From positions 310,001 through 374,000 of the forward strand of contig NZ_JAERSG010000004.1 of assembly GCF_016735675.1 (NCBI RefSeq): DNA of 64,000 bases, read 5' to 3'. The translations under genes and the position numbers were made by a program. Within the stretch, counting starts at the first letter, position 1. Each line of letters begins with the position of its first letter. The notes below the pieces were generated by a model. The model was not told the origin of the DNA. It did not search any database and was given only the letters and a program-made list of their open reading frames with translations. Source of the DNA: Nocardioides baculatus. Its GTDB lineage: Bacteria > Actinomycetota > Actinomycetes > Propionibacteriales > Nocardioidaceae. Of the stretch, positions 7,262-40,997 are shown one piece after another.

Positions 7262-7325
7262 GAGAGAGGATTGTCCACTGCCGCCGACGGGGGCGTCACC
7301 TCAATTGCGCGCCGACCGCGCTGGC

Positions 7326-7331
7326 TAGGGT
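7326..7331 (+). promoter_or_regulatory. -10 box TAGGGT for a leaderless transcript
   Basis: TAGGGT is followed by 6 nt and the ATG at 7338. An AATTGC hexamer lies 17 nt further upstream as a weak -35. No Shine-Dalgarno is present. Confidence 0.55.
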
Positions 7332-7337
7332 CGGACC

Positions 7338-7991
7338 ATGACTCCGCGCCAGGCGATCCCCGAGCCCGGCGACGCCACGACCTCCGCCAACCAGCGCACG
7401 GTCGGCTCCTACGAGCGCATCGCCCGGGACTACGCCGACGACACCGCACCCGGTCCCGACGGCCCCGGCGACTTCAGCGGCGAGTCGCTGCGGCTCCTGG
7501 CCGCCGAGATCCCCGCCGGCGGCACGGCGCTCGAGGTGGGCTCCGGGCCCGGGTGGGACGCCGACTTCCTCGAGACGCAGGGCGTCACCGTCCGCCGGAC
7601 CGACGTCACCCAGGCGTTCATCGACCTCCAGGCCGCACGGGGCAAGGTGGTCGAGCGGCTCGACGTCACCACCGACGACCTCGGTGGTCCGTACGACGCC
7701 GTGCTGGCGCTGGCCGTGCTCCAGCACGTCGAGCGCGAGCAGCTGCCCGCCCTGCTGGGTCGGGTCGCGCGAGCCCTGCGGCCCGGCGGCGCGTTCCTGT
7801 TCTCCGTCCGCGTGGGCGACGGCGAGCAGTGGGAGGTCGGCGACTCCGGCAACCCCTACTTCACCGTCCTGTGGCGCGAGCCGGACCTCTGCGACCTGCT
7901 CGAGGACGTCGGCCTCGGCCTCGAGTGGCGCCACGCCGCGGAGGACTCCGAGGAGAGCCACTGGCTGACGTTCCTCACCCGCCGCCGCTGA
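7338..7991 (+). CDS. class I SAM-dependent methyltransferase
   Basis: A 217-residue methyltransferase with a Rossmann fold. Motif I is ALEVGSGPGWDADFL (about 62-76), the acidic residue after strand 2 is in RTDVTQ, and the catalytic-face strand is YDAVLALAVLQHVE. RPGGAFLFSVR marks strand 5. The N-terminal part (SYERIARDYADDT) matches ubiquinone/biotin-type methyltransferases. The acceptor cannot be deduced. The ATG follows a TAGGGT box by 6 nt, so a leaderless mRNA is likely. It is divergent from the ABC-F gene. Confidence 0.87.
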   Translation: MTPRQAIPEPGDATTSANQRTVGSYERIARDYADDTAPGPDGPGDFSGESLRLLAAEIPAGGTALEVGSGPGWDADFLETQGVTVRRTDVTQAFIDLQAARGKVVERLDVTTDDLGGPYDAVLALAVLQHVEREQLPALLGRVARALRPGGAFLFSVRVGDGEQWEVGDSGNPYFTVLWREPDLCDLLEDVGLGLEWRHAAEDSEESHWLTFLTRRR

Positions 7992-8024
7992 GACCGGAGC
8001 GCGACAACTGGTCTAGTCCATGCC

Positions 8025-8030
8025 TAGGGT
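8025..8030 (+). promoter_or_regulatory. promoter GCGACA-N18-TAGGGT
   Basis: A GCGACA hexamer (8001-8006, four of six matches to TTGACA) stands 18 nt before TAGGGT. Seven nt then lead to the ATG at 8038. This geometry selects the 8038 start over the ATG at 8020, which lies upstream of the -10 box. Confidence 0.55.
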
Positions 8031-8037
8031 GACGGGC

Positions 8038-9297
8038 ATGGCGACCTCCACCTCGGCAGAGCAGACCACCGTCCCGCGCTGGAAGATCATCGGGCCCGGA
8101 CTCGTCGTCGCGGCCACCGGTGTGGGTGCGGCCGACCTCGTCGCGACGCTCATCGCGGGCCAGAAGTTCGGCTACACGCTGCTGTGGTGCGTGGTCGTCG
8201 GCTGCATCATGAAGATCGTGCTCGTCGAGGGCGCCGGTCGCTACTCGCTCTCCACCGGGAAGACCATCTTCGAGGGCTGGCGCTCCCTGGGCGCGTGGAC
8301 CACGTGGTACTTCGCGCCCTACATCGTGATCTGGGGCTTCGTCTACGGCGCCGCCGCGATGGCCGGCACCGGGCTCGCCCTGCAAGGCCTGTTCGGCGGC
8401 CTCTCCACCACCTGGTGGGGCATCGCGTCCGGCCTGATCGGCCTGGTCCTGGTGTGGACGGGGCGCTACTCGGTCTTCGAGAAGGTGCTCGCGGCCCTCG
8501 TCGGCATCATGTTCGTCACCATGGTCGGCGCGGCCCTGCTCACCCTGCCCAACCTGGGCGAGCTCCTCACCGGCCTCGCCCCGCGGATCCCCGACGGCGG
8601 CCTGGTCAACACCCTCGCCCTCGCGGGCGGCGTGGGCGGCACCATCACCCTCGCGGCGTACGGCTACTGGCTGCGCGAGAAGGGCTGGAGCACGCCCGCC
8701 TACATGCGCGTGATGCGCATCGACAACACCGTCGCCTACGTCGTCACCGGCATCTTCGTGCTCGCCACGCTGGTCGTCGGCGCCGAGCTGCTCTACTCCA
8801 CGAGCGTCGCGATCGAGAGCGGCGACGCGGGACTGCTCGACCTCGGCGTCGTGCTCCAGGACCGCTACGGGCAGTGGGCCGGCAAGCTCTTCCTGCTCGG
8901 CTTCTGGGCGGCCGCGATGTCCTCGCTGGTCGGCGTCTGGAACGGCGTCAGCCTGATGTTCGCCGACTTCATGACCAACGTCCGCGGCGGCCACAGCGAC
9001 GACGACGAGGCCCGCGCGGGTGGCACGTGGTACCGCGCCTACATCCTCTGGCTGACCTTCCCGCCGATGGCGATGCTGTTCCTCGGCAAGCCGGTCTGGC
9101 TGATCCTCGCCTACGGCGTGCTCGGCGCGTTCTTCATGCCGTTCCTGGCCGTCACCCTGCTCTGGCTGCTCAACACCGACCGCACCCCGGCCGAGTGGCG
9201 CAACAAGCTCCACTCCAACGTGCTGATGGTGCTCTGCGCGCTGGCCTTCCTCGCCCTCTGCGTCAACGAGGTGCGCAAGGCCGTCGCGGGCGCCTGA
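8038..9297 (+). CDS. Nramp-family divalent metal transporter
   Basis: A 419-residue membrane protein with about 11 hydrophobic helices. The N-terminal helix reads IIGPGLVVAATGVGAADLVATL, where metal-binding Nramp members usually have a DPGN motif. Here the corresponding positions read GVGAADL, so the motif is not canonical and the metal preference is uncertain. Helix 6, with AAYGYWLREKGW, also departs from the MPH motif of Mn/Fe transporters. This fits the Nramp-related branch (NRMT or MntH-like) seen in actinobacteria. The start at 8038 is chosen from the promoter position. It is probably monocistronic, and its stop abuts the convergent stop in TGATCA. Confidence 0.8.
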   Translation: MATSTSAEQTTVPRWKIIGPGLVVAATGVGAADLVATLIAGQKFGYTLLWCVVVGCIMKIVLVEGAGRYSLSTGKTIFEGWRSLGAWTTWYFAPYIVIWGFVYGAAAMAGTGLALQGLFGGLSTTWWGIASGLIGLVLVWTGRYSVFEKVLAALVGIMFVTMVGAALLTLPNLGELLTGLAPRIPDGGLVNTLALAGGVGGTITLAAYGYWLREKGWSTPAYMRVMRIDNTVAYVVTGIFVLATLVVGAELLYSTSVAIESGDAGLLDLGVVLQDRYGQWAGKLFLLGFWAAAMSSLVGVWNGVSLMFADFMTNVRGGHSDDDEARAGGTWYRAYILWLTFPPMAMLFLGKPVWLILAYGVLGAFFMPFLAVTLLWLLNTDRTPAEWRNKLHSNVLMVLCALAFLALCVNEVRKAVAGA

Positions 9298-26579: not shown

Positions 26580-29087
26580 TTAGTCAGGCGTGCGCCGAGA
26601 ACGCCAATCAGCGAGCGAGCGCAGCCGGGCCAGGCGTCCGGTCGCCGGCTCCCCCGTCGACGCCTCGTCCCGGTGGTCCGCCCCGGCGGGGTCGGTCGCG
26701 GGTGCGGACCGGCCTCGACGCAACGAGCGCAGGCTGATGGCGGCCCGCAGCCGCTGCCACGTGCCCACCTCCTGCGACATCGCCCGGCGCTCGGCGTCCA
26801 CGGACTCCCAGTAGGTCGCCGCGGCGGACTCGACGGGCACGCTCGGGCCGAAGACGAAGCTGTCGGCGCGCCGGGCCAGTGCCCCGGCCTGACCGGACAC
26901 GATGCCCACCGACTGCTCGCGACGGGTGACCGTGGGCCCCAGGGGCACCACCTGCCCCAGGTCGCGGGCGTGGTCGACGAGCTCGCGCCACGCGCCGACG
27001 AAACGGGCCGACGCCGAGTCCGCGCTGCGCCGCCGGTGCCGGCGCCACGCCTTGATCCCCACGATCGCGCCGAGGAGCAGCGCGAGGAGGAGCAGCGGCC
27101 CACCGACGTAGGTCAGCACCACGCCGATCCACGACGGGAGCCCGGCGACCAGGCCCTCGTCCTCGGCGGCGTCCTTCTTCGAGGCCTTGCGCTCCTTGAG
27201 GTCGGCGTCGCTCTGCTCACCCGCGTCGGAGGGCGGCGGGATCGGGTTGGGCGGCGGGATCACCGTCCCGGACATCGGGGTGTTGGTCTCGGGGATCTGC
27301 TCGGCCGGCGGCGTCAGCGACATGAACGCCTCGGTCGGCAGCGTGCGCCACGAGCCGTCGGCGGCGCGGAGCTCGACCCACGCCGACACGTCGCTGCCCG
27401 TCACCACGCCGCCCTCGGGCACGACGGCACCGAGGACCACCCGCGCCGGGACGCCGATGTCGTTGGCGATCAGCGCCATCGTGGCGGCGTACTGCTCGTC
27501 GTTGCCGACGATCTGCGGCGCGTTGACGAACTCGTCCGACAGCCGCCAGACGCTGTGGCCGCCGACGTAGATCTTCTCGGTGCGTCCGACGCCGTCGGAG
27601 TACTTGCCCTGCGACCGCAGGTGCTCGGCCGCGGCGAGGACGCGGTCCATCGGGTCGGTCCCGGCGCCCTCGGTCCACTTCTCGGTCGGAGCCTGGATGA
27701 AGGACGCGCTCGGCGGGAGGCTGGTGAGCTCGTCCGAGCCCACCGTCTCCGGCGTGAGCACGTCGTCGGGCTGGATCTCGGTGAACGTGTAGCGGTCGCC
27801 GGGCTGGAGGCCGGACGGGACCACCGCGGTCGAGGTCGCCAGGTTGTAGCGGAAGACCTCGGCCTTGGCGCGCGCGTCGGCGGTCTCGAAGCGCATCGAC
27901 TGGAGCGCGCCGACGGTCGGCAGCCACACGCCCGACCAGCCCTCGCCGAGGGTGATCGTCACCTCGGTCGCGCGGCCACCGTCGGCCGGGTCGGCCACCG
28001 GGTTGTCGATGGTGGAGGAGACGCGCTGGAACGAGTCGTCGGCGGGTCCGGGCAGCGCGTTGTCGCTCGCGCCCCACACCATGCCGTCGTAGCGGTCCAT
28101 CGTGGCGAACCGGACCCGGGTGTTGGCGGGGAGGTCGCCCTCGACCTCCAGCAGCGTCTTGTCGTAGACGTTGGCGCCGTTGGCCTGCCCCTTGGGGTTG
28201 ACGTACCTGCGGAAGCCGGCGAGCGGCGAGGGGTAGCGGCCGATGTCGAAGGGCGGCTCGACCCAGTTGCGAGCCACGGCACGCTCGGCGTCCGCGCCGG
28301 CCAGCACCCCGCTGACCGGGAAGGCGATCCCCGCGGCCAGGGCGAGCATCGCGACGGCCCCGACACCCCGGACGTAGGACGTCGTACCGCCCTGCACCGC
28401 AGCACTGGCACGGCGTGCGCGGATCGCCAGCCAGGCGAGCGCGAGCCCGGCGAACACCGAGCCCTGGAGCAGCAGGGACTGCGGGTGGCGTACGCCGAGC
28501 AGGATCGCGCCCGACAGGGCGAGGGTCATCCCGACGACCGGGAGGACGGCGGCCAGCCAGGCGCGGCGCACCGGCAGGTGGGCGAGCCCGAGGCCGACCA
28601 GGCCGGCGAGCAGCCCGGCCAGCCACGGCAGGACCAGCAGGGGTCCGTCGCCGTCGACGGGCGGGAGGGTGGTGAGCAGGTCCTTCCAGCCGAACACGGC
28701 CTGGTCGGCGACCCGCGCGAGCGTCGAGGCACTGGGGAACAGGGCGCCGTCGCCGAGAGAGCGCAGGCAGAGCGGCCCGCCCAGCAGGAAGAACAGCACC
28801 ACGCAGATGACGACGGCCGAGATGATCGGCCACCCGGCGGCACGGGTGAGGTGGGTGACCACCACTGCGAGGAGCGCGCCGAGCATGCCCACCACGAGGT
28901 AGGTGGCGCCGGTGAACGAGCTGCCCAGGGCGCTCAGCGCGACCGCGGCCAGGACCAGCGTGAAGCCGATGTCGATCCACGAGTGGCGGTCGGGCAGCAG
29001 CGCGTGCGCGCGGACCCGGGTGCGGGTGCCGGTGCTCGACGACGTCTTCACGCGCGCTCCGGCCCTCGTCTGCTGCTGCTCGTTCAT
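26580..29087 (-). CDS. membrane transglutaminase-fold protein with lost catalytic triad
   Basis: An 835-residue protein with about six N-terminal membrane helices (about 30-245), an extracytoplasmic region and a transglutaminase-like core (about 470-590). A further helix (about 665-690, [20 protein letters not shown]) and a cytoplasmic tail follow. In the active family the core reads G-D-C-x-Q-Y-A, H-A-W-V-E and D-P-T. Here the matching positions read GNDEQYA (Cys to Asp, residue 530), SAWVEL (His to Ser, 568) and TLPT (Asp to Leu, 583). It should be inactive as a transglutaminase or protease. The start overlaps the DUF58 stop (ATGA). It is the last gene of the unit giant protein - MoxR - DUF58 - this gene. 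Confidence 0.88.
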
Positions 29088-30274
29088 CGCACGCTCCAGC
29101 GCAGCAGGCCGCCGAGGTCTTCCTTGGCGGCGAGGTGCAGGACGGGCAGGCCGCCGGTCTCGGTGACCCGGCTCGAGCCCTCGGGGTCGACCACGATGCC
29201 GAACCTGCGGACCTCGGGAGCGAACGCCGCGGCCGAGCGCAGCAGGTCGCGGAAGCCCGTGCCGGTGCCACCGACGAAGAAGGCCAGGCTGGTGTCGCGG
29301 GCCAGCGTGCTCGCCTGACGACCCGACTCGACGATGCCGCGCTGCCCGAAGTCGGCGCGGCACACGGCGTCGAGCGCGAGGTAGCCGTCGGAGCCCGAGG
29401 CACCCGCCGAGGCATGCGGGCCGCAGACGAAGGACACGTCGAACTCGTCGAGCACCGCCCGGACCGCGATCGAGGCCGCCACCGCCATCGCGGTCTCGAA
29501 GTCCTCCGGGTCCGACCACGACGACAGCCGGTCGTCGACCACGATCGTGGCGTGGCTGCGGCGGGTGTCGAGGTACTGGCGGACCAGCAGGGCGGACTCG
29601 CCCGTCGAGGCCATCACCTTGGCCGACGAGCGCCAGTGGATGTGCCGCAGGTCGTCGCCGGGGACGTACTCGCGCAGCGCGTGGAAGGCCAGGTCGCTCT
29701 GGCTGACGGCGTCGGTGGAGACGCCCTCGAGGTCGCGCAGGAGGCCGGCGCCCAGCGACTCCATCGGCACCAGGTGCGGACGGACGAGCACCTCGCGCAC
29801 CGGCGTCCACACCACGTCGCGGGAGAAGATGCCGATCGGGTCGCCCCGACGCGTCATGGCCGGGCCGACCGCGATCACGCCGCGCCGCTCGGTGCGGATC
29901 GTGAAGGACTCCTCGTGCGTGGCGCCGGGGGCGAGCGAGCTGATGCCGTAGCGGTGGATCGCCGAACCCACCGGCACCTCCAGCGTGGTCGGCACCAGCC
30001 GCGACGAGGCGCGGTTGACCACCAGGACGCCGGCGGCCACCGACTCCCCCGCCGCGACCCGCTCGGGCTGGAGGCGGAGGTCGACCGACACCGCGGTGCG
30101 CCCCATCAGGAAGGGCAGCGAGAGGACGATGAGGGCGAGGCAGGCCGTGCCGAGGACCGACAGCTCACGCCACTGCGTGAGGCTCGCGACCAGGAGCGCG
30201 CCCAGCCCGAGCCCGAGGACCAGCCAGCCGATTGGCTTGATCACCTCCAGCGCATCGTTCAACCGCTGCCTCAT
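29084..30274 (-). CDS. DUF58 family protein
   Basis: A 396-residue protein with two close N-terminal membrane helices (about 14-58) and a C-terminal vWA-like DUF58 domain. The family signature LREYVPGDDLRHIHWRSSAK is intact (about 205-224) and is followed by ATIVVDDRLSSW, the MIDAS-like strand. DUF58 proteins act with MoxR ATPases, probably as their membrane partner or client. It lies 7 nt after the MoxR gene and overlaps the next gene by 4 nt, so the three are tightly co-expressed. Confidence 0.92.
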   Translation of the reverse strand: MRQRLNDALEVIKPIGWLVLGLGLGALLVASLTQWRELSVLGTACLALIVLSLPFLMGRTAVSVDLRLQPERVAAGESVAAGVLVVNRASSRLVPTTLEVPVGSAIHRYGISSLAPGATHEESFTIRTERRGVIAVGPAMTRRGDPIGIFSRDVVWTPVREVLVRPHLVPMESLGAGLLRDLEGVSTDAVSQSDLAFHALREYVPGDDLRHIHWRSSAKVMASTGESALLVRQYLDTRRSHATIVVDDRLSSWSDPEDFETAMAVAASIAVRAVLDEFDVSFVCGPHASAGASGSDGYLALDAVCRADFGQRGIVESGRQASTLARDTSLAFFVGGTGTGFRDLLRSAAAFAPEVRRFGIVVDPEGSSRVTETGGLPVLHLAAKEDLGGLLRWSVR

Positions 30275-30281
30275 CGCCGCT

Positions 30282-31253
30282 TCAGGCCCCCACGCGGTCC
30301 GTCGGCGGCGCGACGGCGTCGAGCAGGCGCGAGATCACGGTCTGCACGTCGACGCCGCTGAACTGCGCCTCGGCGTCGAGCAGCAGGCGGTGCGAGAGCA
30401 CCGGCTCGGCGAGGTCCTTGATGTCGTCGGGAACGACGTGGTCGCGACCGTCGGCGGCGGCCCACGTCTTGGCGACGCGGACGAGGGCCAGGCAGCCGCG
30501 CGGCGAGAGGCCGAGCTTGACGTGGGGCTGGCGACGCGACTCCTCGGCCAGCTCGGCGACGTAGCCGATGACGGCCGGGTCGACGTAGACCTGGTCGGCC
30601 AGGCCGCTCATCTGCGCGATCGTCGCGGCCGTGATCACCGGCTGCACCAGTGCGGCGCGGTCGCGCACCGCGGCGTTGTTGAGCAGCTCGACGGTGGCCT
30701 GGCGGTCGGGATAGCCGACCGACGTCTTCATCAGGAACCGGTCGAGCTGGGCCTCGGGCAGCCGGTAGGTGCCGGCCTGCTCGATCGGGTTCTGGGTGGC
30801 GATCACCAGGAACGGCTTGCCCACCGGGTGCGCGACGCCGTCGACGGTGACGCGGCCCTCCTCCATCACCTCGAGCAGCGCCGACTGGGTCTTGGGCGAG
30901 GCGCGGTTGATCTCGTCGGCGAGGACGATCGTGTGGAAGATCGGGCCGGGGTGGAACTCGAACGTGCCCTTGTGCTGGTCGTAGACCGTGACGCCGGTGA
31001 CGTCGGACGGCAGCAGGTCAGGGGTGAACTGCACCCGGGCGTGGCTGCCCTGCACGGTGTTGGCCAACGCACGCGCGAGCATCGTCTTGCCGGTGCCGGG
31101 GAAGTCCTCGAGGAGCACGTGGCCCTCGGAGAGCAGGCAGGTCAGCGCCAGCCGTACGACGTGGCGCTTGCCGAGGACGGCCTTCTCCATGTTGTCGGTG
31201 AGCTGGTCGAAGGTGGTCCTGAACCACTCTGCCTGTTCGTGGCTGATCGTCAT
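30282..31253 (-). CDS. MoxR-family AAA+ ATPase
   Basis: A 323-residue AAA+ ATPase with Walker A FPGTGKTMLARAL (about 54-66), Walker B VLADEINRASPKTQSALLE (about 114-132), sensor 1 in LVIATQNP and an arginine-finger region YRLPEAQLDRF. MoxR proteins are thought to be chaperones that remodel partner complexes together with vWA-domain proteins such as the DUF58 protein next door. The gap to the giant surface protein gene is 16 nt. Confidence 0.95.
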   Translation of the reverse strand: MTISHEQAEWFRTTFDQLTDNMEKAVLGKRHVVRLALTCLLSEGHVLLEDFPGTGKTMLARALANTVQGSHARVQFTPDLLPSDVTGVTVYDQHKGTFEFHPGPIFHTIVLADEINRASPKTQSALLEVMEEGRVTVDGVAHPVGKPFLVIATQNPIEQAGTYRLPEAQLDRFLMKTSVGYPDRQATVELLNNAAVRDRAALVQPVITAATIAQMSGLADQVYVDPAVIGYVAELAEESRRQPHVKLGLSPRGCLALVRVAKTWAAADGRDHVVPDDIKDLAEPVLSHRLLLDAEAQFSGVDVQTVISRLLDAVAPPTDRVGA

Positions 31254-31269: not shown

Positions 31270-34200
31270 TCACCAGTTGCCGGGGGACGCCAGGAAGTCG
31301 ACGTCGTCGCCCGCGAGCCGGTCCCACCGGCAGAGGGCCGTCGTGGTGCCGCCGCGGAAGTAGATGGGGACGATCTGGTCGCTCGAGGAGTACCAGGGAC
31401 CCCACGTCCGCTCGTTCTTCGACCACCATGCGTCGCGCGTGTTGTCCACCTCGCAGCTGACGCCGTCGCCCGTGCGCAGACCGCGGATCAGGAACTGCAC
31501 CCGCGCGCAGGTCGCCTCGACGCAGTCGGGCTGGCTCCCGTTCTGCTTGCAGTCGGGCAGGGTGGAGTCCGCGGCGTCGCTGCACGCCGTGCCTCTCGTC
31601 ACCTGCACCGTCGGCGGGGGCGGCGGCCCGCTGCGGTCCGAACGGCCCTTCGACGCCGTGCCGCGCCCTCCCGGAGCCGCATCCTGCAGGGTCACGTCGA
31701 TCCGGACGTCACGGTCGAAGTCGTCGGCCGTGAAGGAGAAGGGCTGCGTGAATGAGCCGGCACCGCCGAGGTCGATGATCTGGGCGGGCCCGCCGTTCAC
31801 GCGGACGGCCAGCTGGGCAGGATCACCGTTGCTCGTGCCGCTGATCGACCACGTCAGGTCCCGGCCGTTGACGTTGGCTGCCGGGATGTCGTTGAGCATG
31901 TTGGCCAGGGGACCGAACGACTGCACGCTCTGCTGGCCGCTCAGGGTGCACCCGGCCGGTGCCTTCTCGTTGCAGACCCGGAGCTGGATGGGATAGGGCT
32001 GCTCGTTGCTCGGCACCAGGATCCGGGTCGTGTACGTGCCGATCCCCTGGTTGAAGGACTTGTTGACCAGACCGCCGACCAGGATGTCCACCTTGCTGGT
32101 CGTGCCGCGCGAGTCGGGCACCGTGTACTGGAGCTGGACCTCCTGGTTGGTCCCCGTGGCGTTCGCCGTGAAGGGACCCCACTGTGCGGGCCGTCCGACC
32201 GACTCGATCGCCGTGCCCTCGCTCGGCTGGGACCGGTTGCCGGGCTGGTTCGCGGCCGTGACGCGGTAGGTGTACGTCTGTCCGTCGTAGGGCACGCCCT
32301 GGTGGGTGCACGACAGCGAGGCGAGCTTCTGGCAGCCCGGGACGGCGCCCGAGGCGCCATCGCTCGTCGTGTAGGAGACCGTGTAGACGGTGGGTCCCTG
32401 GCCCTCGGGCAGGACGGCCTGCCACGTGATGCGCATGTTCGTCTGGTTGGCCCCCGCTTCGAGATCGGTGACCGCCGGTGCAGGCGGGGCCGGCGGCGTA
32501 CCGAGCGGCTGGAACTCTGCGGACGAGCGCGGCGCCGAGTAGCCCACGGTGTTCTGGGCCTTCACCGTGAAGACGTACTTCTCGTTGTTGTTGAGCCCGG
32601 GCGCGGCAAAGCTCAGCTGGTTGCCGGGGACGACGGCCTGGCCACCGACCCAGGTGATCGTGTAGTCGTCGATCCTCGCGGCTCCGATGATCGACGGCTT
32701 GTCCCACGCGATCGTGATCGTGCCGTCGCCCTGGCTCTTCATCCGGATGTTCTGCACCCGGCCGGGCTCGGTGTCGGCACGCGCGGTCTGGGACAGCTCG
32801 CTGTAGTCGCTCGGGCCGACGCGGTTGTAGGCCCGGACCCGGAAGTTGTAGTTGCCGGTGCTGTTCTTGACGAGCTTGCGGAAGACGCACTCGTTGGTCT
32901 CGCACCTCTGCGTGGTGCCCTTCCGCTCCTCCTTCACCTCGTAGTAGAGGATCGGAGCCCCGCCATCGTCGTCGGGCGGTGCCCACGACATCTTGACCGT
33001 GTCGATCTCGTCGGACTGCTGGTAGGGGCGTGGCGCGCCGGGCGTCGAAGGAACCCCGATGACCTGGAACTGGATCCGGGCCTCGGCCTGGCGCTCGGGT
33101 GGCGGGCTCGAGGAGGAGACGTCACTGACGACCAGCCGGAACGCGGCCTGCGCGCCACGCGCGTCCTTGTCGGCAGTCAGCGTCAGCTTCCCACCCGAGG
33201 ACGTCGCGCGGACGCCGGGGTTGTTGCCGGTGCCCTGCACCGACACGATCGTCGGGTCGGGGTCGGACACCCCGGCCTGCAGGTAGGGGCCGATGTCGAT
33301 GGTGCGCGACTCACCCGCCTCCATCGCCTCCACCGGGATGGGGTTCATGGTCGGAGGCGGCGCCTGCGCGAGCCGGAAGCGCACCTCCTCGACGTTGCTC
33401 TCGCCGGCCTGCACGGACAGCACGGCCTCGCCGCCCCGGGTGGCGGTGTCCGCGGCCGTCACCGCCACCACCGAACCGTCCGGCGCGCCGACGTCGACCC
33501 CGTCGACGGACTCGCTCCAGTCTGCCGAGTACTCGAGCCCGGCCTCGTCGCGCGGGTCGACGGTGAACACCTTGCAGAAGGTGGCGATGTCGAGGTCGTA
33601 GCTCTGCCCGGCGGAGATCGGGACGACCTGGGACGGACACTCGAGCTCGGGCCGGTCGTCGCCGACCAGCACCGGGATCGACAGGAGCACCGTCGCGCCG
33701 TCGTCGGTGGTGGTGACGTCCTCGTTGCCTGTCTCGTCGGTCGCGGTCGTGACCTCGACCAGCACCGCGCCGGGTCCGCGGAATCCCTCCGGGGCGCTGA
33801 GGGTGAATCCGCTGGCGCCGTCCGGTCCGACCGCGAGCTGAGCCGGCGATGCCGACCAGGATCGGCGGCCGGACGCGAGTCGCACGTCGCCGCCGTCGGG
33901 CGCCGCGACGTAGTCACCCAGCCTGCCCGTGATCGTCTCGCCCGGGTCCAGCTTGATCAGTGCCTTGTCGACCACGTAGGGCAGGCCGGTGCCGGTCGGC
34001 GGGACGTAGACCGACGCCGTCGCCGACGCACCGTCGAGGTCCTCGACGACGAACGGCAGCACCTTGGGCGCCACGCCCCGGTCGGCCCGCACGGACACGT
34101 CGTCGACGACGGTCGCGGACGGGTCTCCGCTCACGCCGGAGACGCGGAGGTCGTCGGTCGTGCCGTCAGGGTCGTACGCACCGTCGAGCACGTCGACCAC

Positions 34201-37200
34201 CACGCTGCCGCTGTCCTCGACCCGGCCGAACGCGTCGTAGACGATGGGCGGGTTGTTGAAGCCCTCCGCGGTCTCGAGCGTCATCGTGGACCGCGACTCG
34301 CTCAGGCCGTTGGTGACGCTGTAGACCAACACGAGGGGGCGAGCGCCGGCCGTCTCGGGCGCCGGCACGGTGACGAGGTTGGTGTCGGGGTCGAGCTTGG
34401 CGCCCTCGGGGCCGTCGAGCAGGGTGACCTTCACGGAGTCGCCCGGCGCGACGTAGTCGTTGGCGAGCGGGTCGAACGTCGCCGTACGCCCCGGCGCTAC
34501 GGTGAGCCGGTCCTCGACCGCGAGCGGCGGCTGGGGCTGCGTGGCCTCCACGACCGCCACCCGGACGGTGCCGGTGGCGAAGGCGCCCTGCGAGTCCACC
34601 ACGGAGTAGGTGAACTCGTCGGTGCCGACCGTGCGCGGGTAGGCCTCGTACTCCAGGAAGTTGCCGCCGTAGCCCACGATCCGTCCGAGCCGGGGCGCGG
34701 AGGTGATGCCCGTGACCGTCACGGGGTCACCGTTGCGGTCGACCCCGGTGCCGGGCACCCGGATCTTCACCGAGTCGGCGGAGGTCACCCGGCTCTCGAG
34801 CGTCGGGGGCTCCGGCGGGTCGTTGGGGTCGTCCTTGGGCACGACGGTCACCCGGAGGACGCCGTTGGCCTTCTCCCCCTCGAGGTTCTGCGCGACGTAG
34901 GTGATCTCGTAGGTGTCGCGTTCCTTGATCCTGTCCGGGGCGACGTAGCGCACGACGCGTCCGGAGACGAAGGCGCGGCCGACGTCACCGGTGACGTCGA
35001 TCGGCGCGACGACGTCGAGCTCGCCCGGGGTGTCGCTGTCGATCAGGTCGTTGACCAGGGTCAGCCGGTCCCCGGACGGCGACACGTCGTTGTCGAGCAC
35101 GGGCGCGCTGACCGACGATCCCGCCCTCACGACCACCCGGTCACCGGCCGTGATCGGGGTGTTGTCGGCCGGGGCCTCGCGCTGGGTGACCACGACCTCG
35201 CCGCGGATGCCCGAGCTGGTGCCGTTGCTGATCGTGTACGACACCGTCTGGGTGGCCGGCGACAGGTCGGGCTGCACGGCCGAGATCCGCAGCCAACGAC
35301 CGTCGATGATGGCGACGTCGAGCTGGCCGGGACGATCGCCCGCTCCCCGCTGCACGACCAGGAGCCCGCCGGCCGGGTCGAGGTCGTTGGCGAGCACGTC
35401 GACGATGCCCGGCGCCTGGCCGTAGATCGTGAGGGTGTCGGGCATCGCGATGGGGTCCGCCGCCCGCTTCGGTCGTGGCTTCACGTCGACGCGGATGGTG
35501 CCCTCGTCGAGCGTGGCGTTGCCGTAGGCCGCGTCGTAGCTGAGGAAGTAGGTGCCGGCCCGGTCTCCGGTGAAGGTGAGCTGCCCGGTGTCGAGGTCGG
35601 TGACGACCTTGGAGCCCGGCTGCTGGGGGACCTTGCCGCCGAGTGCGAGCTCCGCGTTGGGGGTGTCGGGGTCCGAGCCGGGGAGGTCGTTGAGGAGCGG
35701 GCGGATCTTGATCGGCTTGCCGACCTCCCCGCGTACGACGTCGGGCTCGGCGCTCGGCGGGAAGGAGTCCTGGTCCTTGGGTGCCTGCACCTGGAAGGCC
35801 AGCGACTTCTTCACCGCCGGCGAGCGGCCGTCCGTCACGGCGAACTCGACGCGGATCGTCTGCGGTCCGTCCGCCGCTGTGGAGGGGGCGCTGAACCTGA
35901 TCCGCCCGTCCGCCGTGGTGCGCGCCGTGGCGCCGCTCTCCTCGCCACCGGTCGCGGCGGCCGAGTCGAGCAGGAGGGTGTCGCCGTCGGCGTCGTCGCG
36001 CCAGTCCGCGAGCACGGGGACCGTGAGTGACCCACCGTGCGGCACGCGGTAGACCGGCTTCCGGTAGCCCGCCCGCACGTCGGGCTGCTCGTTCTCCGCG
36101 CCGCTGCGGACGTCGACGGTCACCGCCGCGCGCGCCGAGAGCCCGTTGCGACCGTCGTCGATGGTGTAGTCGAACGTGGCCGGCCTGGCCTCGTCGGGCA
36201 TCTGCAGGACCAGGGTCTGACCGTCCGGGCTGATCTCGACCCGCGCACCACCGGTGGGCTGGTCGACGTCGACGATGCTGAGCAGTCGGCCCTCGGGAGC
36301 CGCGTCGTTGTCGAGCGGGTGCAGCACCGTCGTCCGGCCGGGCCGCACGCCGTAGGAGTCGGGCTTGGCCGTCGGCGGACGGCGGTCGGCCTCGCTGGGG
36401 TTCTCGTTGTCCTTCTCGTCGTCCTCGCTCTGCTTCTTCGAGGTGAACGCGTCCCAGTTGTCGATGTCGATCGGGCGGTCCTGCTGGACGTCCCACACGG
36501 CGCCGCTGTTGGCGTCGTTGAGGACGATCTCACCACGGTTGACGCGGAAGGCCAGGCTCGTGGCGTTGCCACCCAGCTCGTCCTCCATGATCTCCTGCGC
36601 GCCGCACTGCGTGGCCACGGCTCCCACGCCGCCCGACCACGCGCCGAAGACGCAGGGGCCGAGCCGCACCGGCTGGACCGGGGTGCCCGAGTAGGTCGAG
36701 GTGATGGTGGTGACGTCGCCGGACGCGAGGTCGACGCTCAGCAGTCCGTCGCCGGCGCCGACGAGGACTGCGTCGTAGGACGGTCCGGACTGCTGGAGGA
36801 CGCTGCCGGCGGGTACCGACGCGGTGGCGCCGTCGAGCACGCGGAGCACCCCGGAGTCGGAGTCGAGCGTGACCACGCGCTCCCCCACCGTGGTCACCTC
36901 GCTCACCTGGCCGGCGTCACCCGGGAGGTCGGTGGTCGAGGGCTTGCCGAAGCCCGGGCCGGCGGGGTCGATGGTCGTCACGGTGCCGTCGGACGCCGAC
37001 GTGACGACGATCGTGCCGCCCTGGCTGACGGCGAGCGCGGCGTCCTCGCCGGCCTCGGCGAGCGGCTTCGACTGCACGTCGAGCGAGCCCATGAGGGGCT
37101 TGCCGACCTCGGAGTCGTAGCGGACCGCCCAGACCTCACCGGTCTCGGGGTCGGTGCTCGCGAGCGTGCCGCCGCCCATCCGGACCGAGGCGGCCGCGGG

Positions 37201-37557
37201 GACGGCCGCCGATCCGCCGTCCTGCAGCTGCAGGCGCGTGGTCTCGATGGCCTGGCCTCGCGCGGAGTTCAGGTCGAGCGTGACGACCGACGCGCCGTCC
37301 TGGACGACGTCGAGCCGGGTCTTGCCGTCGTCGCTGGGGACGACGCCGTCGAGCTGGTTGATCGGCTTGTTGAGCCGGCCGGACCAGCCCTTCTTGCCGT
37401 TGACGACCCAGATGCCGCCGTCGTTGAGCTCGGCCTCGTGCTTCTTGTAACCGCTCGCGCTGATGGCGTACACCGCCACCGCGCCCGATGCGATCGCCAG
37501 TGCGACACCGGAGGCAATGCCCACCCGGTGCCGTCGCACGAAGGTCGCACGCGCCAC
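31270..37557 (-). CDS. giant Ig-like / fibronectin III surface protein
   Basis: A 2095-residue protein. A short basic N-terminus and one membrane helix (about 12-33, VGIASGVALAIASGAVAVY) anchor it with the C-terminus outside. Residues about 45-370 form a propeller-like region (GEVWAVRYDS, GTVTTIDPAG). A charged Asp/Glu linker follows. Residues about 387-1490 hold at least seven cadherin-like/Big_9 repeats with the DxLxND signature (LHPLDND, RPLLND, DVLANDLD, PVLDNDV, FDPLANDY). Residues about 1500-1800 hold three FN3 domains (STPGAPRPYQ, GRVQNIRMKS, PAPAVTDLEA). The C-terminal end has six or more Cys. The start is taken as the GTG at 37557, which has AGGGGGA 7 nt upstream; a GTG at 37578 is the alternative. 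It is the first gene of the MoxR-DUF58 unit. Confidence 0.88.
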   Translation of the reverse strand: MARATFVRRHRVGIASGVALAIASGAVAVYAISASGYKKHEAELNDGGIWVVNGKKGWSGRLNKPINQLDGVVPSDDGKTRLDVVQDGASVVTLDLNSARGQAIETTRLQLQDGGSAAVPAAASVRMGGGTLASTDPETGEVWAVRYDSEVGKPLMGSLDVQSKPLAEAGEDAALAVSQGGTIVVTSASDGTVTTIDPAGPGFGKPSTTDLPGDAGQVSEVTTVGERVVTLDSDSGVLRVLDGATASVPAGSVLQQSGPSYDAVLVGAGDGLLSVDLASGDVTTITSTYSGTPVQPVRLGPCVFGAWSGGVGAVATQCGAQEIMEDELGGNATSLAFRVNRGEIVLNDANSGAVWDVQQDRPIDIDNWDAFTSKKQSEDDEKDNENPSEADRRPPTAKPDSYGVRPGRTTVLHPLDNDAAPEGRLLSIVDVDQPTGGARVEISPDGQTLVLQMPDEARPATFDYTIDDGRNGLSARAAVTVDVRSGAENEQPDVRAGYRKPVYRVPHGGSLTVPVLADWRDDADGDTLLLDSAAATGGEESGATARTTADGRIRFSAPSTAADGPQTIRVEFAVTDGRSPAVKKSLAFQVQAPKDQDSFPPSAEPDVVRGEVGKPIKIRPLLNDLPGSDPDTPNAELALGGKVPQQPGSKVVTDLDTGQLTFTGDRAGTYFLSYDAAYGNATLDEGTIRVDVKPRPKRAADPIAMPDTLTIYGQAPGIVDVLANDLDPAGGLLVVQRGAGDRPGQLDVAIIDGRWLRISAVQPDLSPATQTVSYTISNGTSSGIRGEVVVTQREAPADNTPITAGDRVVVRAGSSVSAPVLDNDVSPSGDRLTLVNDLIDSDTPGELDVVAPIDVTGDVGRAFVSGRVVRYVAPDRIKERDTYEITYVAQNLEGEKANGVLRVTVVPKDDPNDPPEPPTLESRVTSADSVKIRVPGTGVDRNGDPVTVTGITSAPRLGRIVGYGGNFLEYEAYPRTVGTDEFTYSVVDSQGAFATGTVRVAVVEATQPQPPLAVEDRLTVAPGRTATFDPLANDYVAPGDSVKVTLLDGPEGAKLDPDTNLVTVPAPETAGARPLVLVYSVTNGLSESRSTMTLETAEGFNNPPIVYDAFGRVEDSGSVVVDVLDGAYDPDGTTDDLRVSGVSGDPSATVVDDVSVRADRGVAPKVLPFVVEDLDGASATASVYVPPTGTGLPYVVDKALIKLDPGETITGRLGDYVAAPDGGDVRLASGRRSWSASPAQLAVGPDGASGFTLSAPEGFRGPGAVLVEVTTATDETGNEDVTTTDDGATVLLSIPVLVGDDRPELECPSQVVPISAGQSYDLDIATFCKVFTVDPRDEAGLEYSADWSESVDGVDVGAPDGSVVAVTAADTATRGGEAVLSVQAGESNVEEVRFRLAQAPPPTMNPIPVEAMEAGESRTIDIGPYLQAGVSDPDPTIVSVQGTGNNPGVRATSSGGKLTLTADKDARGAQAAFRLVVSDVSSSSPPPERQAEARIQFQVIGVPSTPGAPRPYQQSDEIDTVKMSWAPPDDDGGAPILYYEVKEERKGTTQRCETNECVFRKLVKNSTGNYNFRVRAYNRVGPSDYSELSQTARADTEPGRVQNIRMKSQGDGTITIAWDKPSIIGAARIDDYTITWVGGQAVVPGNQLSFAAPGLNNNEKYVFTVKAQNTVGYSAPRSSAEFQPLGTPPAPPAPAVTDLEAGANQTNMRITWQAVLPEGQGPTVYTVSYTTSDGASGAVPGCQKLASLSCTHQGVPYDGQTYTYRVTAANQPGNRSQPSEGTAIESVGRPAQWGPFTANATGTNQEVQLQYTVPDSRGTTSKVDILVGGLVNKSFNQGIGTYTTRILVPSNEQPYPIQLRVCNEKAPAGCTLSGQQSVQSFGPLANMLNDIPAANVNGRDLTWSISGTSNGDPAQLAVRVNGGPAQIIDLGGAGSFTQPFSFTADDFDRDVRIDVTLQDAAPGGRGTASKGRSDRSGPPPPPTVQVTRGTACSDAADSTLPDCKQNGSQPDCVEATCARVQFLIRGLRTGDGVSCEVDNTRDAWWSKNERTWGPWYSSSDQIVPIYFRGGTTTALCRWDRLAGDDVDFLASPGNW

Positions 37558-37614
37558 GCCACTTTCCCCCTTGGCCACACGGTCGACGTGCGCCCGCCGC
37601 AGTCAACCACAGGG

Positions 37615-37717: not shown

Positions 37718-38929
37718 TTGATCGTCGATGCGCGGTACACCAGTGGGGCTGGTGTGCTGATCGGCAGTGGTGCCCACTGGGTGCTGCTCACCGACCCGGG
37801 TGACGAGCAGGTCGTCCAGGAGATCTGGGACGTCCTGTCCATGACCGCCCCCTCCGGCTCGACCGTCGTCGAGCGGGTCCTCGCGATCGTCGAGAAGTCC
37901 TTCGACGGCGACCCGCCGGGCCTGGCGGTCGTGGACTTCACCTCCGGCGCCTCGACCACGCTCTCCCGCGGGTCCGGCCACGTACGGATGGCCGGCCCCG
38001 GCCGCGTGCTCAGCCTCGACGGCGGCAACGACCCCGGCGAGCTCGAGACGACCCGGCGGCTCGTCGGCGGGGTGGTCGCCGCCCAGCGCGTCGAGCTCAA
38101 GCCGATCTCGATGCGCGTCGCCCCCGCACACCAGGCGCAGGAGGCCGCAGCGCCGCTGCCCGCGGCCGGCATGATCGACGGGATCCCGGCCGCCATCCTC
38201 GCGGCCAAGGGCCCCGACGGCCCGCCCCCGCGCAACCGGATCCGCCCGCCCGTGGACGACACCGGACCGGCGCGGGACACCTCCGAGCCCGACCCGCTCC
38301 TCGCCGCGCGCATCGAGGAGGGCACCCGCACCACCATCCGTACGCCGTCCGAGCCGCACAGCGCCCCGGTGGCCGGTGCCGAGGTCCTCGACTCCCACGA
38401 CGAGCACGACGACCACGACGGCTCCACCACCTTCCGACCGGCACACCTCTCCCACAACACCGCGCCCACGGTCCTCGCGGTCAGCTGCCCGCTCGGCCAC
38501 CTGACGCCGCCGGTGTCTCCGCAGTGCCGCGTGTGCCACCAACGCGTCGCGCCGCAGGAGCCGCGCCGCGTCGACCGCCCGCCGCTGGGCGGGCTGCGGC
38601 TGCCGACCGGCGAGGTCGTGCCGCTCGACCGCGGTGTGGTGCTGGGGCGCAAGCCCGCTCCCGCCGACGGCAGCACCGACTGGCCCCACCTCGTGCACCT
38701 GCCGCGGGACCACTCGTTCGTCTCGCGCCAGCACCTCGAGATCGAGCTCGACGGCTGGGACGTCGTGGCGCGCGACCTCGACAGCAGGGGCGGCACGACC
38801 ATCGCCCCGCCCGGGCGCGAGCCGCAGCGGATGCGGCCGCGCGACGCCTACGTCCTCGAGCCGGGCACCGTCCTGGACCTGGCGCAGGTCTACGCCGTCC
38901 GCTTCGAGACGGGGGCGGTTGCCCGGTGA
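37718..38929 (+). CDS. FHA domain protein with zinc-ribbon-like motif
   Basis: A 403-residue cytosolic protein. Residues 1-128 form a domain I do not recognise (starts MIVDARYTSGAGVLIGSGAH). A disordered Pro/Asp/His-rich linker leads to a four-ligand motif CPLGHLTPP plus CRVCHQR (about 248-268) that resembles a zinc ribbon. The FHA domain follows (about 300-395) with LGRKP, SRQHLE and DLDSRGGT; the last replaces the common TNGT with GGT. FHA domains bind phosphothreonine, so the kinase encoded next (GTGA overlap) is the likely partner. The start is TTG at 37718, chosen because AGGGGAG lies 6 nt upstream. Confidence 0.83.
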   Translation: MIVDARYTSGAGVLIGSGAHWVLLTDPGDEQVVQEIWDVLSMTAPSGSTVVERVLAIVEKSFDGDPPGLAVVDFTSGASTTLSRGSGHVRMAGPGRVLSLDGGNDPGELETTRRLVGGVVAAQRVELKPISMRVAPAHQAQEAAAPLPAAGMIDGIPAAILAAKGPDGPPPRNRIRPPVDDTGPARDTSEPDPLLAARIEEGTRTTIRTPSEPHSAPVAGAEVLDSHDEHDDHDGSTTFRPAHLSHNTAPTVLAVSCPLGHLTPPVSPQCRVCHQRVAPQEPRRVDRPPLGGLRLPTGEVVPLDRGVVLGRKPAPADGSTDWPHLVHLPRDHSFVSRQHLEIELDGWDVVARDLDSRGGTTIAPPGREPQRMRPRDAYVLEPGTVLDLAQVYAVRFETGAVAR

Positions 38930-40332
38930 GCGCCCCGGTCATCCCCGGGTTCGCGTTCATCGAGCACCTGGGCAGCGGCGGTTTCGCCGACGTCTTCCTC
39001 TACGAGCAGCAGTGGCCGCGCCAGCGCGTCGCGGTCAAGGTCGTCCGCCCCGACGTCCCGCTGACCGACCGCGAGAAGTACCTCTTCACCGCCGAGGCCA
39101 ACGCGATGGCTCGGCTGGCCGACCACCCCTACATCGTCTCGGTGATCACCGCGGGTGTCACCGCCGAGGGTGGGCGCCCCTTCCTCGTGATGCGCTACTG
39201 CCCGCCACCCGATCTTGGGGTGCGGGTGCGCTCGAACCCGATGGCGCCGGTCGACGCGGTGGCGACGGGCATCAAGCTCGCGAGCGCTATCGAGACGGCC
39301 CACCGCTCGGGCATCCTCCACCGCGACATCAAGCCCAGCAACGTCCTGGTCACCACCTATCACGAGCCCGCCCTGACCGACTTCGGGATCGCTGGCCACA
39401 TGGCCGACGTCGACGGCGACAGCGACGTGCGCATCTCCTACCCGTGGTCGCCGCCCGAGCTCCTCGACGGCCGGTCCAACGGCTCGGTCGCCTCGGACGT
39501 CTACTCCCTCGGCGCCACCATCTGGCACCTGCTCGTGGGTCGCTCGCCCTTCTCCATCCCCTCGGGCGACAACTCCACGCGTGCGCTCAGCGCACGCATC
39601 CTGCACGCGGCTCCCCCGGCGACCCAGCGGCCCGACGTGCCGCCCGCGCTCGACCGGCTGCTCCAGCAGTGCCTGGCCAAGCGGCCCGAGCACCGGCCGG
39701 CCAGCGCGCTCGAGCTCGCCCGGGCGCTGCAGCGCATCGAGTCCGCCGCCGGCTGGTCGCGCACCGCCGTCGCGGTGGAGGGCGACCGGCCCGACGCCTC
39801 GGTCGCGGCGCCCGAGGTGGCCGAGGCCCCCGAGGACGCCACCGCGATGAAGCCGGTGACGGTGATCTCGGCGAGCGGCCCGCGGCGGATCGCCGCCCAG
39901 GACGTCGCACCGGCCGTCGAGGACGACGAGGAGGCCTCGTCGGTGTCCGGCCTCGTCTGGGCGGGCATCGGAGCGCTGGTCGTGGCGCTGGTGGTCGGGT
40001 TCCTGGTCTTCGGTGGCAACGACCGCGAGGAGGACCCCGGCGTGGTCGTCCCGACCGAGTCGCAGGTGCCGAGCGCCGTCGTGCCCGACGAGCTCACGTC
40101 GGCTCCGACGCTCTCCGGGCGTCGTACGGCACGCGGGGTGATGTTCGAGTGGGAGCCGACGGTCCCCGTCGAGCCCGGCGACTCGTTCAGCTACCACCGC
40201 GACGACACCGACGACTACGGCCGCACCACCAAGCAGCAGCTGCTGCTGCGCACCGACGAGCCGGTCTGCCTCGACCTCCGGATGACCCGCGGGTCCGACA
40301 ACTCCCCGAGCGTGAGCGAGTGCGTCACCTGA
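38926..40332 (+). CDS. transmembrane Ser/Thr protein kinase (Hanks type)
   Basis: A 468-residue kinase. The catalytic domain (about 1-275) has glycine loop LGSGGFADVF, ATP-binding Lys in VAVKVV (38), the catalytic loop HRDIKPSN (about 130), metal-binding DFGIAG (about 151), PPE in place of APE, and DVYSLG. An acidic linker, one membrane helix (about 338-362) and about 105 external residues follow. There are no PASTA repeats, so it is unlike PknB; it fits the kinase of the bifidobacterial PFNA cluster (Pkb2). The GTG start overlaps the FHA gene's stop. Confidence 0.93.
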   Translation: MSAPVIPGFAFIEHLGSGGFADVFLYEQQWPRQRVAVKVVRPDVPLTDREKYLFTAEANAMARLADHPYIVSVITAGVTAEGGRPFLVMRYCPPPDLGVRVRSNPMAPVDAVATGIKLASAIETAHRSGILHRDIKPSNVLVTTYHEPALTDFGIAGHMADVDGDSDVRISYPWSPPELLDGRSNGSVASDVYSLGATIWHLLVGRSPFSIPSGDNSTRALSARILHAAPPATQRPDVPPALDRLLQQCLAKRPEHRPASALELARALQRIESAAGWSRTAVAVEGDRPDASVAAPEVAEAPEDATAMKPVTVISASGPRRIAAQDVAPAVEDDEEASSVSGLVWAGIGALVVALVVGFLVFGGNDREEDPGVVVPTESQVPSAVVPDELTSAPTLSGRRTARGVMFEWEPTVPVEPGDSFSYHRDDTDDYGRTTKQQLLLRTDEPVCLDLRMTRGSDNSPSVSECVT

Positions 40333-40997
40333 TCCGTGTCGCGGTTGCGGCCTGCACGCTGGTGCTGGCCTGCTCAGGCGCGGCTGCGGCGCGGGTCGAC
40401 CGCACCTCCCCCGACGAGCAGCGGATCCTCGACCTGCTCGGACAGGCACGGATCGTCGACGACATCGGCTACCACCCCGGCTACGACCGCGACTGCGATC
40501 CCGGCGCCTGCGTCTTCGGCGAGCCCTGGACCGACGACCACGCCGGCCCTCGAGGCCACAACGGGTGCACCACCCGCGAGGACGTCCTGCTCATGCAGAT
40601 GAATGACATCGAGCTGCGCTGGGGATCGCGGTGCCGCATCTACGAGGCGCGGCTGCGCGATCCCTACTCGGGCGAGCGGATGACGTGGCGCGACGACGGC
40701 TACGACATCTCGATCGACCACGTCTACCCGCTCGCCCGTGCCTGGCACGGTGGCGCGTGGGCGTGGCCGCTGCGCACGCGGATCACCTTCGCCAACGACG
40801 TACGCCGCGAGCTGCTGGCGGTCTCCGCGCGCACCAACCAGGCCAAGGAGGCCGACGGCCCGGGCGAGTGGCTGCCGCCCTGGCGCCGCTCGCACTGCGA
40901 CTACGTACGCCGTTACGTCGGCGTGGCCGTGGCGTGGGACCTGCCCCTCACCACGGCCGACGCGGACGCCGTACGCCGTGTCGCCGCGACCTGCTGA
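40320..40997 (+). CDS. secreted HNH (DUF1524/GmrSD-type) nuclease
   Basis: A 225-residue protein with a Sec signal peptide (LIRVAVAACTLVLACSGAAA). It has a C-terminal HNH-type domain with ISIDHVYPLARAWHGGAW (catalytic His region, about 140-157), FANDVRRELLAVSARTNQAK (Asn) and a late WRRSHCDYV. About six Cys may form disulfides, which fits an extracellular enzyme. The GTG start at 40320 lies 13 nt before the kinase stop, so it is co-translated with the FHA-kinase pair. Its biological target is not evident. Confidence 0.82.
   Translation: MRHLIRVAVAACTLVLACSGAAAARVDRTSPDEQRILDLLGQARIVDDIGYHPGYDRDCDPGACVFGEPWTDDHAGPRGHNGCTTREDVLLMQMNDIELRWGSRCRIYEARLRDPYSGERMTWRDDGYDISIDHVYPLARAWHGGAWAWPLRTRITFANDVRRELLAVSARTNQAKEADGPGEWLPPWRRSHCDYVRRYVGVAVAWDLPLTTADADAVRRVAATC

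Follow-up and report, generated by a model that had tools for sequence, protein, structure and literature searches.

The 835-residue membrane protein encoded at 26580-29087 of a 64,000-nucleotide stretch of the Nocardioides baculatus genome (the window) has the outline of a transglutaminase, with other amino acids in the places of its catalytic residues. The locus raises the questions of whether this protein can still be an enzyme, whether the loss is peculiar to this gene, and what the domain is kept for if catalysis has gone.

Gene content and domain architecture of the locus

One run of genes on the minus strand encodes a giant Ig/FN3 protein, MoxR, DUF58, and Tgm, and genes for an FHA-domain protein and a kinase lie on the plus strand.

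26580..29087, minus strand: tgm, encoding a TgpA-like polytopic membrane protein of 835 aa whose transglutaminase ectodomain is catalytically dead
27303..27722, minus strand: degenerate transglutaminase core, residues 456-595 (Pfam match 476-581)
29084..30274, minus strand: DUF58 protein, assigned by position and similarity to counterparts (Pfam DUF58 20.8 bits, under the cut-off of 23.4)
30282..31253, minus strand: MoxR-type AAA+ ATPase (AAA_3, 209 bits)
31270..37578, minus strand: giant Ig-like/fibronectin type III protein of 2102 aa (fn3 of PFNA), with Big_9, fn3, and cadherin-like matches
37718..38929, plus strand: FHA-domain protein, divergent (FHA, 30.8 bits)
38926..40332, plus strand: serine/threonine protein kinase, pkb2 counterpart, divergent (Pkinase, 132.5 bits)

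The tgm frame runs from an ATG start to a TAA stop, contains no N, and shares 4 bases at its start with the DUF58 gene. Pfam matches were obtained to TgpA_N at residues 44-439 (39.8 bits, cut-off 30) and to Transglut_core (PF01841) at residues 476-581 (40.2 bits, cut-off 23), and this succession of a membrane part and a transglutaminase core is the architecture of TgpA-like proteins. The protein is predicted to have eight putative N-terminal membrane helices, an ectodomain ending in Transglut_core, one long helix, and a cytosolic tail. TgpA-like membrane proteins carry a C-terminal DUF4129-type tail; that of Tgm gave no Pfam match at E<=1 and aligned with the tail of Cys-type relatives in a profile-profile match that spans nearly the full length of the protein. 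The nearest named core is that of N. glacieisoli (97%).

In open-access text, the PFNA operon of Bifidobacterium is described as encoding a kinase, FN3, MoxR, DUF58, and Tgm, together with FHA (PMC8430577, PMC6803598, PMC10688814). All five core genes are present in the window, that for DUF58 with its sub-cut-off Pfam match. The gene direction differs from the published arrangement, in which all genes run one way with pkb2 first, in that FHA and kinase (37718-40332) are on the plus strand. By eye, an ORF at about 40330-40997 (plus strand), 3' of the kinase, resembles a secreted HNH-type nuclease, and the ribosomal genes rpmJ-rpsM-rpsK-rpsD-rpoA lie directly downstream of the tgm operon, down to 23101. 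Ribosomal neighbours as in the window were also found at 11 of 42 relative loci.

Catalytic columns and predicted fold

The catalytic columns were located by MAFFT rows and by profile-profile alignment of Tgm with 20 Cys-type relatives (probability 100, E 5.7e-55).

27498..27500, minus strand: Asp530 (GAC), catalytic Cys column
27384..27386, minus strand: Ser568 (TCG), catalytic His column
27336..27338, minus strand: Pro584 (CCG), catalytic acid column

A preliminary description of this DNA had reported that all three catalytic residues were gone, with Asp530 for Cys, Ser568 for His, and Leu583 (CTG) for the acid. The first two assignments hold. The third is displaced by one residue, as the canonical WVRF[E/D]PTP aligns with WRTLPTE in the window protein and places Pro584 in the acid column. 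Predicted models of Tgm and of a canonical paralogue from the same genome agree with these columns: D530 opens helix 530-544 as C518 of the paralogue opens helix 518-531, S568 is second in strand 567-575 as H561 is in strand 560-568, and P584 stands just past strand 580-583 as E577 stands just past strand 570-575. Mean pLDDT was 81.5 for the window protein and 78.6 for the Cys-type paralogue, and the 10-residue means across the Tgm core (451-600) were 76-97.

The observation that the surrounding fold is kept was borne out by the predicted model, which over residues 286-593 matched the periplasmic domain of TgpA (6g4h) with Z 21.1 and rmsd 3.4 for 243 aligned residues (Foldseek E 1.1e-08). The predicted model thus has the transglutaminase fold, and the residues of an active transglutaminase or cysteine protease (Cys; His and acid) are replaced in it by Asp530, Ser568, and Pro584. 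A substitute Cys/His/Asp set elsewhere in the pocket had been raised as a way in which the catalytic reading might survive; such a set is ruled out by an ectodomain without Cys. Since the only cysteines of the window protein, at residues 95 and 107, both lie in the membrane part, its sequence excludes cysteine chemistry in the ectodomain. Ectodomain Cys is likewise missing from 71 of 76 clade members, and the other 5 have one or two, none of them common across the family.

Distribution of the loss, its order, and selection on the domain

Searches were carried out with the protein against 58 relatives and with a profile against 296 genomes of the phylum, 393 of the class, and 297 of the order. 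The profile searches split the Tgm/TgpA-like proteins into two groups by score, and among distinct readable cores 115 scored at least 90 bits and 77 scored lower. The Cys column of the 115 high-scoring cores holds D in 71, S in 16, E in 14, A in 9, G in 4, H in 1, and Cys in none, whereas that of the 77 lower-scoring cores holds C in 66, P in 5, S in 4, and T and E in 1 each. Close orthologues with an intact triad, proposed in the preliminary description as the evidence to seek against its reading, were therefore not found among these 115. The profile was itself built from 22 dead cores, which makes the score-based definition of the family partly circular, and a neighbour-based count was added. 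Among 102 loci, found with the window protein or with the profile built from dead cores and in part hand-picked and non-random (20 high-scoring, 20 low-scoring, and 20 more including 16 of family f105), the giant Ig/FN3 protein is present in 64, of which none has Cys, and absent from 38, of which 22 have Cys and two (L045 and L333) are short contigs. Because none of the 115 cores and none of the 64 giant-linked loci has Cys, its absence from Tgm is a family trait. Cores of at least 100 bits are spread over 17 or more actinobacterial family codes, 14 of them within the class of the window, with the Cys column read in 15 and membership of f106 and f107 given by score alone.

The column counts leave out L076-L155, whose DNA search pattern was restricted to D or A in the Cys position; of these 80, L076-L078 entered the dN/dS comparison and the full set entered the neighbour count at named loci. 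They also leave out cores with more than 60 gaps per 150 positions, among them L192, L207, and L220, which score low and have no Cys. The link between dead Tgm and the giant protein has a single origin and is phylogenetically one event, so that it is suggestive rather than proof. Ten loci of the window genus inside the clade (L052, L054-L056, L060-L064, and L070) carry MoxR, DUF58, and a dead Tgm, and the giant was not found alongside.

Several other loci deserve separate mention. On contig C4 of the same genome, L052 is another MoxR-DUF58-Tgm set of the PFNA type, beside which the giant was not found, and its Tgm reads G-T-P in the triad columns. More degenerate paralogues of the window genus (L060-L064) have Pro at the Cys column, within a helix start that reads TPFQYS or TPFQYT; they also lack the GH/R motif described below, a loss that fits drift as well as binding. 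In L065 (G022, 6015-8425), tgm is split across two overlapping frames, by assembly error or frameshift. In four MoxR-DUF58-linked TgpA-like proteins that lack an Ig/FN3 neighbour (L273, L277, L281, and L287), the Cys column is filled by Thr or Ser; they may represent another kind of dead TgpA. Outside the tree, Cys is also missing at low score from L173, L181, L192, L207, L209, and L220. Judged by these sequences, some dead TgpA-like proteins fall outside the PFNA-type family.

A tree of 100 Tgm/TgpA-like proteins was built with the three trait columns removed (their absence was checked); it is a quick, unrooted tree in which 26 of 97 inner branches are below 80, with three long end branches and letter make-up warnings. 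On this tree the minimum number of changes is 1 (100*) for Cys/not-Cys, at least 12 for His, and at least 11 for the acid. The single Cys/not-Cys change falls at the base of the PFNA-type group as a whole. L273, L277, L281, and L287 are neighbours of the Cys clade, separated by the main split from the 76 PFNA-type rows, so that they enlarge the not-Cys side and add no change. With Cys taken as ancestral because it is present in the wider family, these numbers mean that Cys was lost once and early, and that His and the acid decayed many times, as expected once catalysis ceased to matter. Both His and acid are retained in 22 of the 115 dead cores, neither in 56, and His is missing in 70. The idea of a triple loss in this gene, advanced in the preliminary description, does not survive these counts; the window lineage is one of many that lost His and acid after Cys.

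The vicinity of the old pocket is more constant than the triad columns, and two stretches stand out.

27492..27503, minus strand: helix start N529-D530-E531-Q532, with [ND], E, and Q at these columns in 115/115 PFNA-type cores
27543..27560, minus strand: G510-H511-x3-R515, with G in 115/115, H in 112/115, and R in 114/115 (K once) PFNA-type cores

The residue before the Cys column is D in 73 and N in 42 of the 115 dead cores, as against Y, F, or T in the other 77, and E and Q after the column are each found in all 115. In the 77 other cores the R of GH-x3-R is found in 8 and the H in 29. The GH was considered as a newly gained catalytic His and dropped, as GH is present in those 29 other cores. 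Acidic residues and Ser are favoured in the opening turn of helices; since the Cys column lies in such a turn, an acid or Ser there requires no new chemistry.

Core dN/dS was 0.04-0.25 against seven close relatives. It was 0.66 and 0.50 against the more distant L043 and L044, for which the high GC content probably makes dS unreliable. In the comparison with the closest named relative no part of Tgm evolves more slowly than the core (0.038), and the last 45 residues gave 0.46-1.05 against all nine relatives compared. The low core dN/dS against close relatives and the near-invariant residues by the pocket argue that the dead domain is being kept. The cytosolic tail has near-invariant, family-specific residues of its own, namely R in 76/76 (P in 19/20 of Cys-type proteins), D in 75/76 (E in 20/20), and W in 75/76 (R in 14/20). 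These near-invariant R, D, and W mark a region at residues 692-790 (26718-27014, minus strand) that has no Pfam domain; a contact of this region with MoxR or DUF58 is possible.

The core set of giant, MoxR, DUF58, and Tgm also occurs outside the bifidobacteria. The giant, MoxR, and DUF58 lie in one stretch with Tgm at 60 of 80 named loci, comprising 40/54 in Nocardioides, 9/9 in Actinokineospora, 1/2 in Jatrophihabitans, 0/3 in Marmoricola, 0/1 in Phycicoccus, 4/5 among genus-less records, and 1/1 each in Saccharothrix, Kutzneria, Actinospica, Actinocrinis, Dactylosporangium, and Lapillicoccus. Kinase and FHA are both in the stretch at 10 of 20 giant-linked loci. All 16 f105 loci fetched (of 19 genomes matched) have the FN3 giant, MoxR, DUF58, and Tgm in the published PFNA order. 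A 16S primer for the genus Bifidobacterium, which 77 papers list with that genus, had an exact match in 13 of 17 f105 genomes and in 0 of 5 others. At one of them (L329), PP2C-like, LRV, and FHA proteins then follow Tgm, the PP2C match being under the Pfam cut-off. No kinase was detected in any of the 16 stretches from f105, most of which end before the published position of that gene, 5' of fn3. The Tgm of these Bifidobacteriaceae reads GDSEQY, with Ser at the Cys column in 16/16, T8 Q5 E2 A1 at the His column, and Y15 H1 at the acid column (n = 16).

The accessible text calls Tgm a transglutaminase, "presumably a cysteine protease" (PMC8430577), and reports that the operon is exclusive to bifidobacteria and used to sense host immune signals (PMC10688814). 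At the level of sequence, the 16 f105 loci, rather than the named protein of B. longum, contradict the enzyme statement as that text words it, and the loci of Nocardioides, Actinokineospora, Saccharothrix, Kutzneria, and other genera contradict the bifidobacteria-only one. Within open-access text (including PMC12607495, PMC12067865, and PMC7159879), no prior account of a dead PFNA Tgm was found.

Role of the ectodomain and comparison with known systems

Taken together, the window protein is likely to be the Tgm of a PFNA-type membrane system of actinobacteria and a pseudo-transglutaminase that has retained its ectodomain for a non-catalytic purpose; it would probably serve as a binding or sensing part rather than as an enzyme. 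The non-catalytic role put forward in the preliminary description thus appears well supported by the Cys-free ectodomain, the intact predicted fold, and purifying selection on the core. For the steps beyond a dead but conserved domain we infer a scheme in which the vestigial cleft would be rebuilt as a binding module around the capped [ND]-x-E-Q helix and the G-H-x3-R helix, the [ND]-[DSE]-E-Q start acting as a helix cap in place of an activated Cys. R515, H511, and N529 are candidate pocket-side binding residues. The giant Ig/FN3 protein, or a ligand displayed together with it, might be held or sensed by the ectodomain, whose state the membrane helices might relay to the conserved cytosolic tail; MoxR and DUF58 would act there under the control of the FHA/kinase pair. 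The kinase of B. longum is reported in the available text to phosphorylate MoxR (PMC8430577), which by analogy fits this signalling route. A wider account, in which a single-origin pseudo-transglutaminase family had its dead cleft rebuilt as the recognition site for the giant protein, within an old actinobacterial envelope sensing or adhesion machine that bifidobacteria inherited rather than a host-immune sensor that arose there, is offered only tentatively.

The main rival is that the dead domain is a passive vestige, a folding or spacing element for the membrane helices and tail, with the function in the tail. The near-invariant, family-specific columns of the cytosolic part would suit it, as would the variability of the site residue itself (D, S, E, A, G, or H, and P in low-scoring paralogues). 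The near-invariant surroundings of the old pocket ([ND], E, Q, G, and R) speak against it, as does a core that evolves more slowly than the rest of the protein in the comparison with the closest named relative, and we regard it as unlikely. That the dead Tgm instead regulates, or competes with, an active TgpA-like paralogue elsewhere in the genome would fit N. baculatus, which has a C-H-E paralogue with MoxR and DUF58 genes of its own next to it, but the dead Tgm is the sole Transglut_core match in 9 of the 16 Bifidobacteriaceae genomes searched, and such two-subunit use seems improbable.

A re-invented enzyme, with an Asp or Ser site (for example D-H-D) replacing Cys chemistry as in a hydrolase or metal site, might be read from the acid or Ser found at the site in 101 of the 115 cores and from the 22 that have both His and acid. 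The site is inconstant (A9, G4, and H1), the His column has changed repeatedly, and about half of the cores (56/115) have neither partner, all of which makes this alternative highly improbable. That the loss reflects a decaying pseudogene or an error of sequencing, frame, or alignment is of negligible probability: the split gene of G022 (L065) concerns one relative and nothing in the window points that way, the frame is open with clean codons, two alignment methods and two predicted models concur, and Cys is absent from 115 distinct cores of independent genomes. If the protein is a non-catalytic binding part, then binding rather than enzymology experiments make sense for work on PFNA, and the evolved purpose of the system shifts. 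It would also offer a bacterial pseudoenzyme that goes back to a single fixation and has been retained in many families, for which the Cys-type sister operons provide a control.

Among known systems, TgpA of Pseudomonas aeruginosa (6g49, 6g4h) shares with Tgm the DUF3488/TgpA_N membrane part and a transglutaminase ectodomain of the same fold. The accessible text reports a conserved Cys-His-Asp triad and an activity assay of its periplasmic domain (PMC3507681), and none of these three residues is found in the window protein. Canonical actinobacterial MoxR-DUF58-TgpA-like operons, such as that of the paralogue L053 elsewhere in the same genome (C-H-E), have the same three-gene row but keep C-H-E/D, and the Ig/FN3 giant is found in 0 of 22 Cys-type loci within the stretches fetched. 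The animal proteins EPB42, FBXO21, and CC2D2A, described in open-access text as inactive and transglutaminase-like (PMC10318531), resemble Tgm, to judge from the description of their fold, in having a papain-like/transglutaminase fold without catalysis, but are eukaryotic, differ in architecture, and belong to no operon. A further close counterpart is the Bifidobacterium PFNA operon, which has the same gene set and, in the 16 Bifidobacteriaceae loci fetched, a Tgm that is likewise dead. Its genes are reported to share a single direction, in contrast to the divergent FHA and kinase of the window, and those 16 loci have Ser at the site that is Asp in the window protein.
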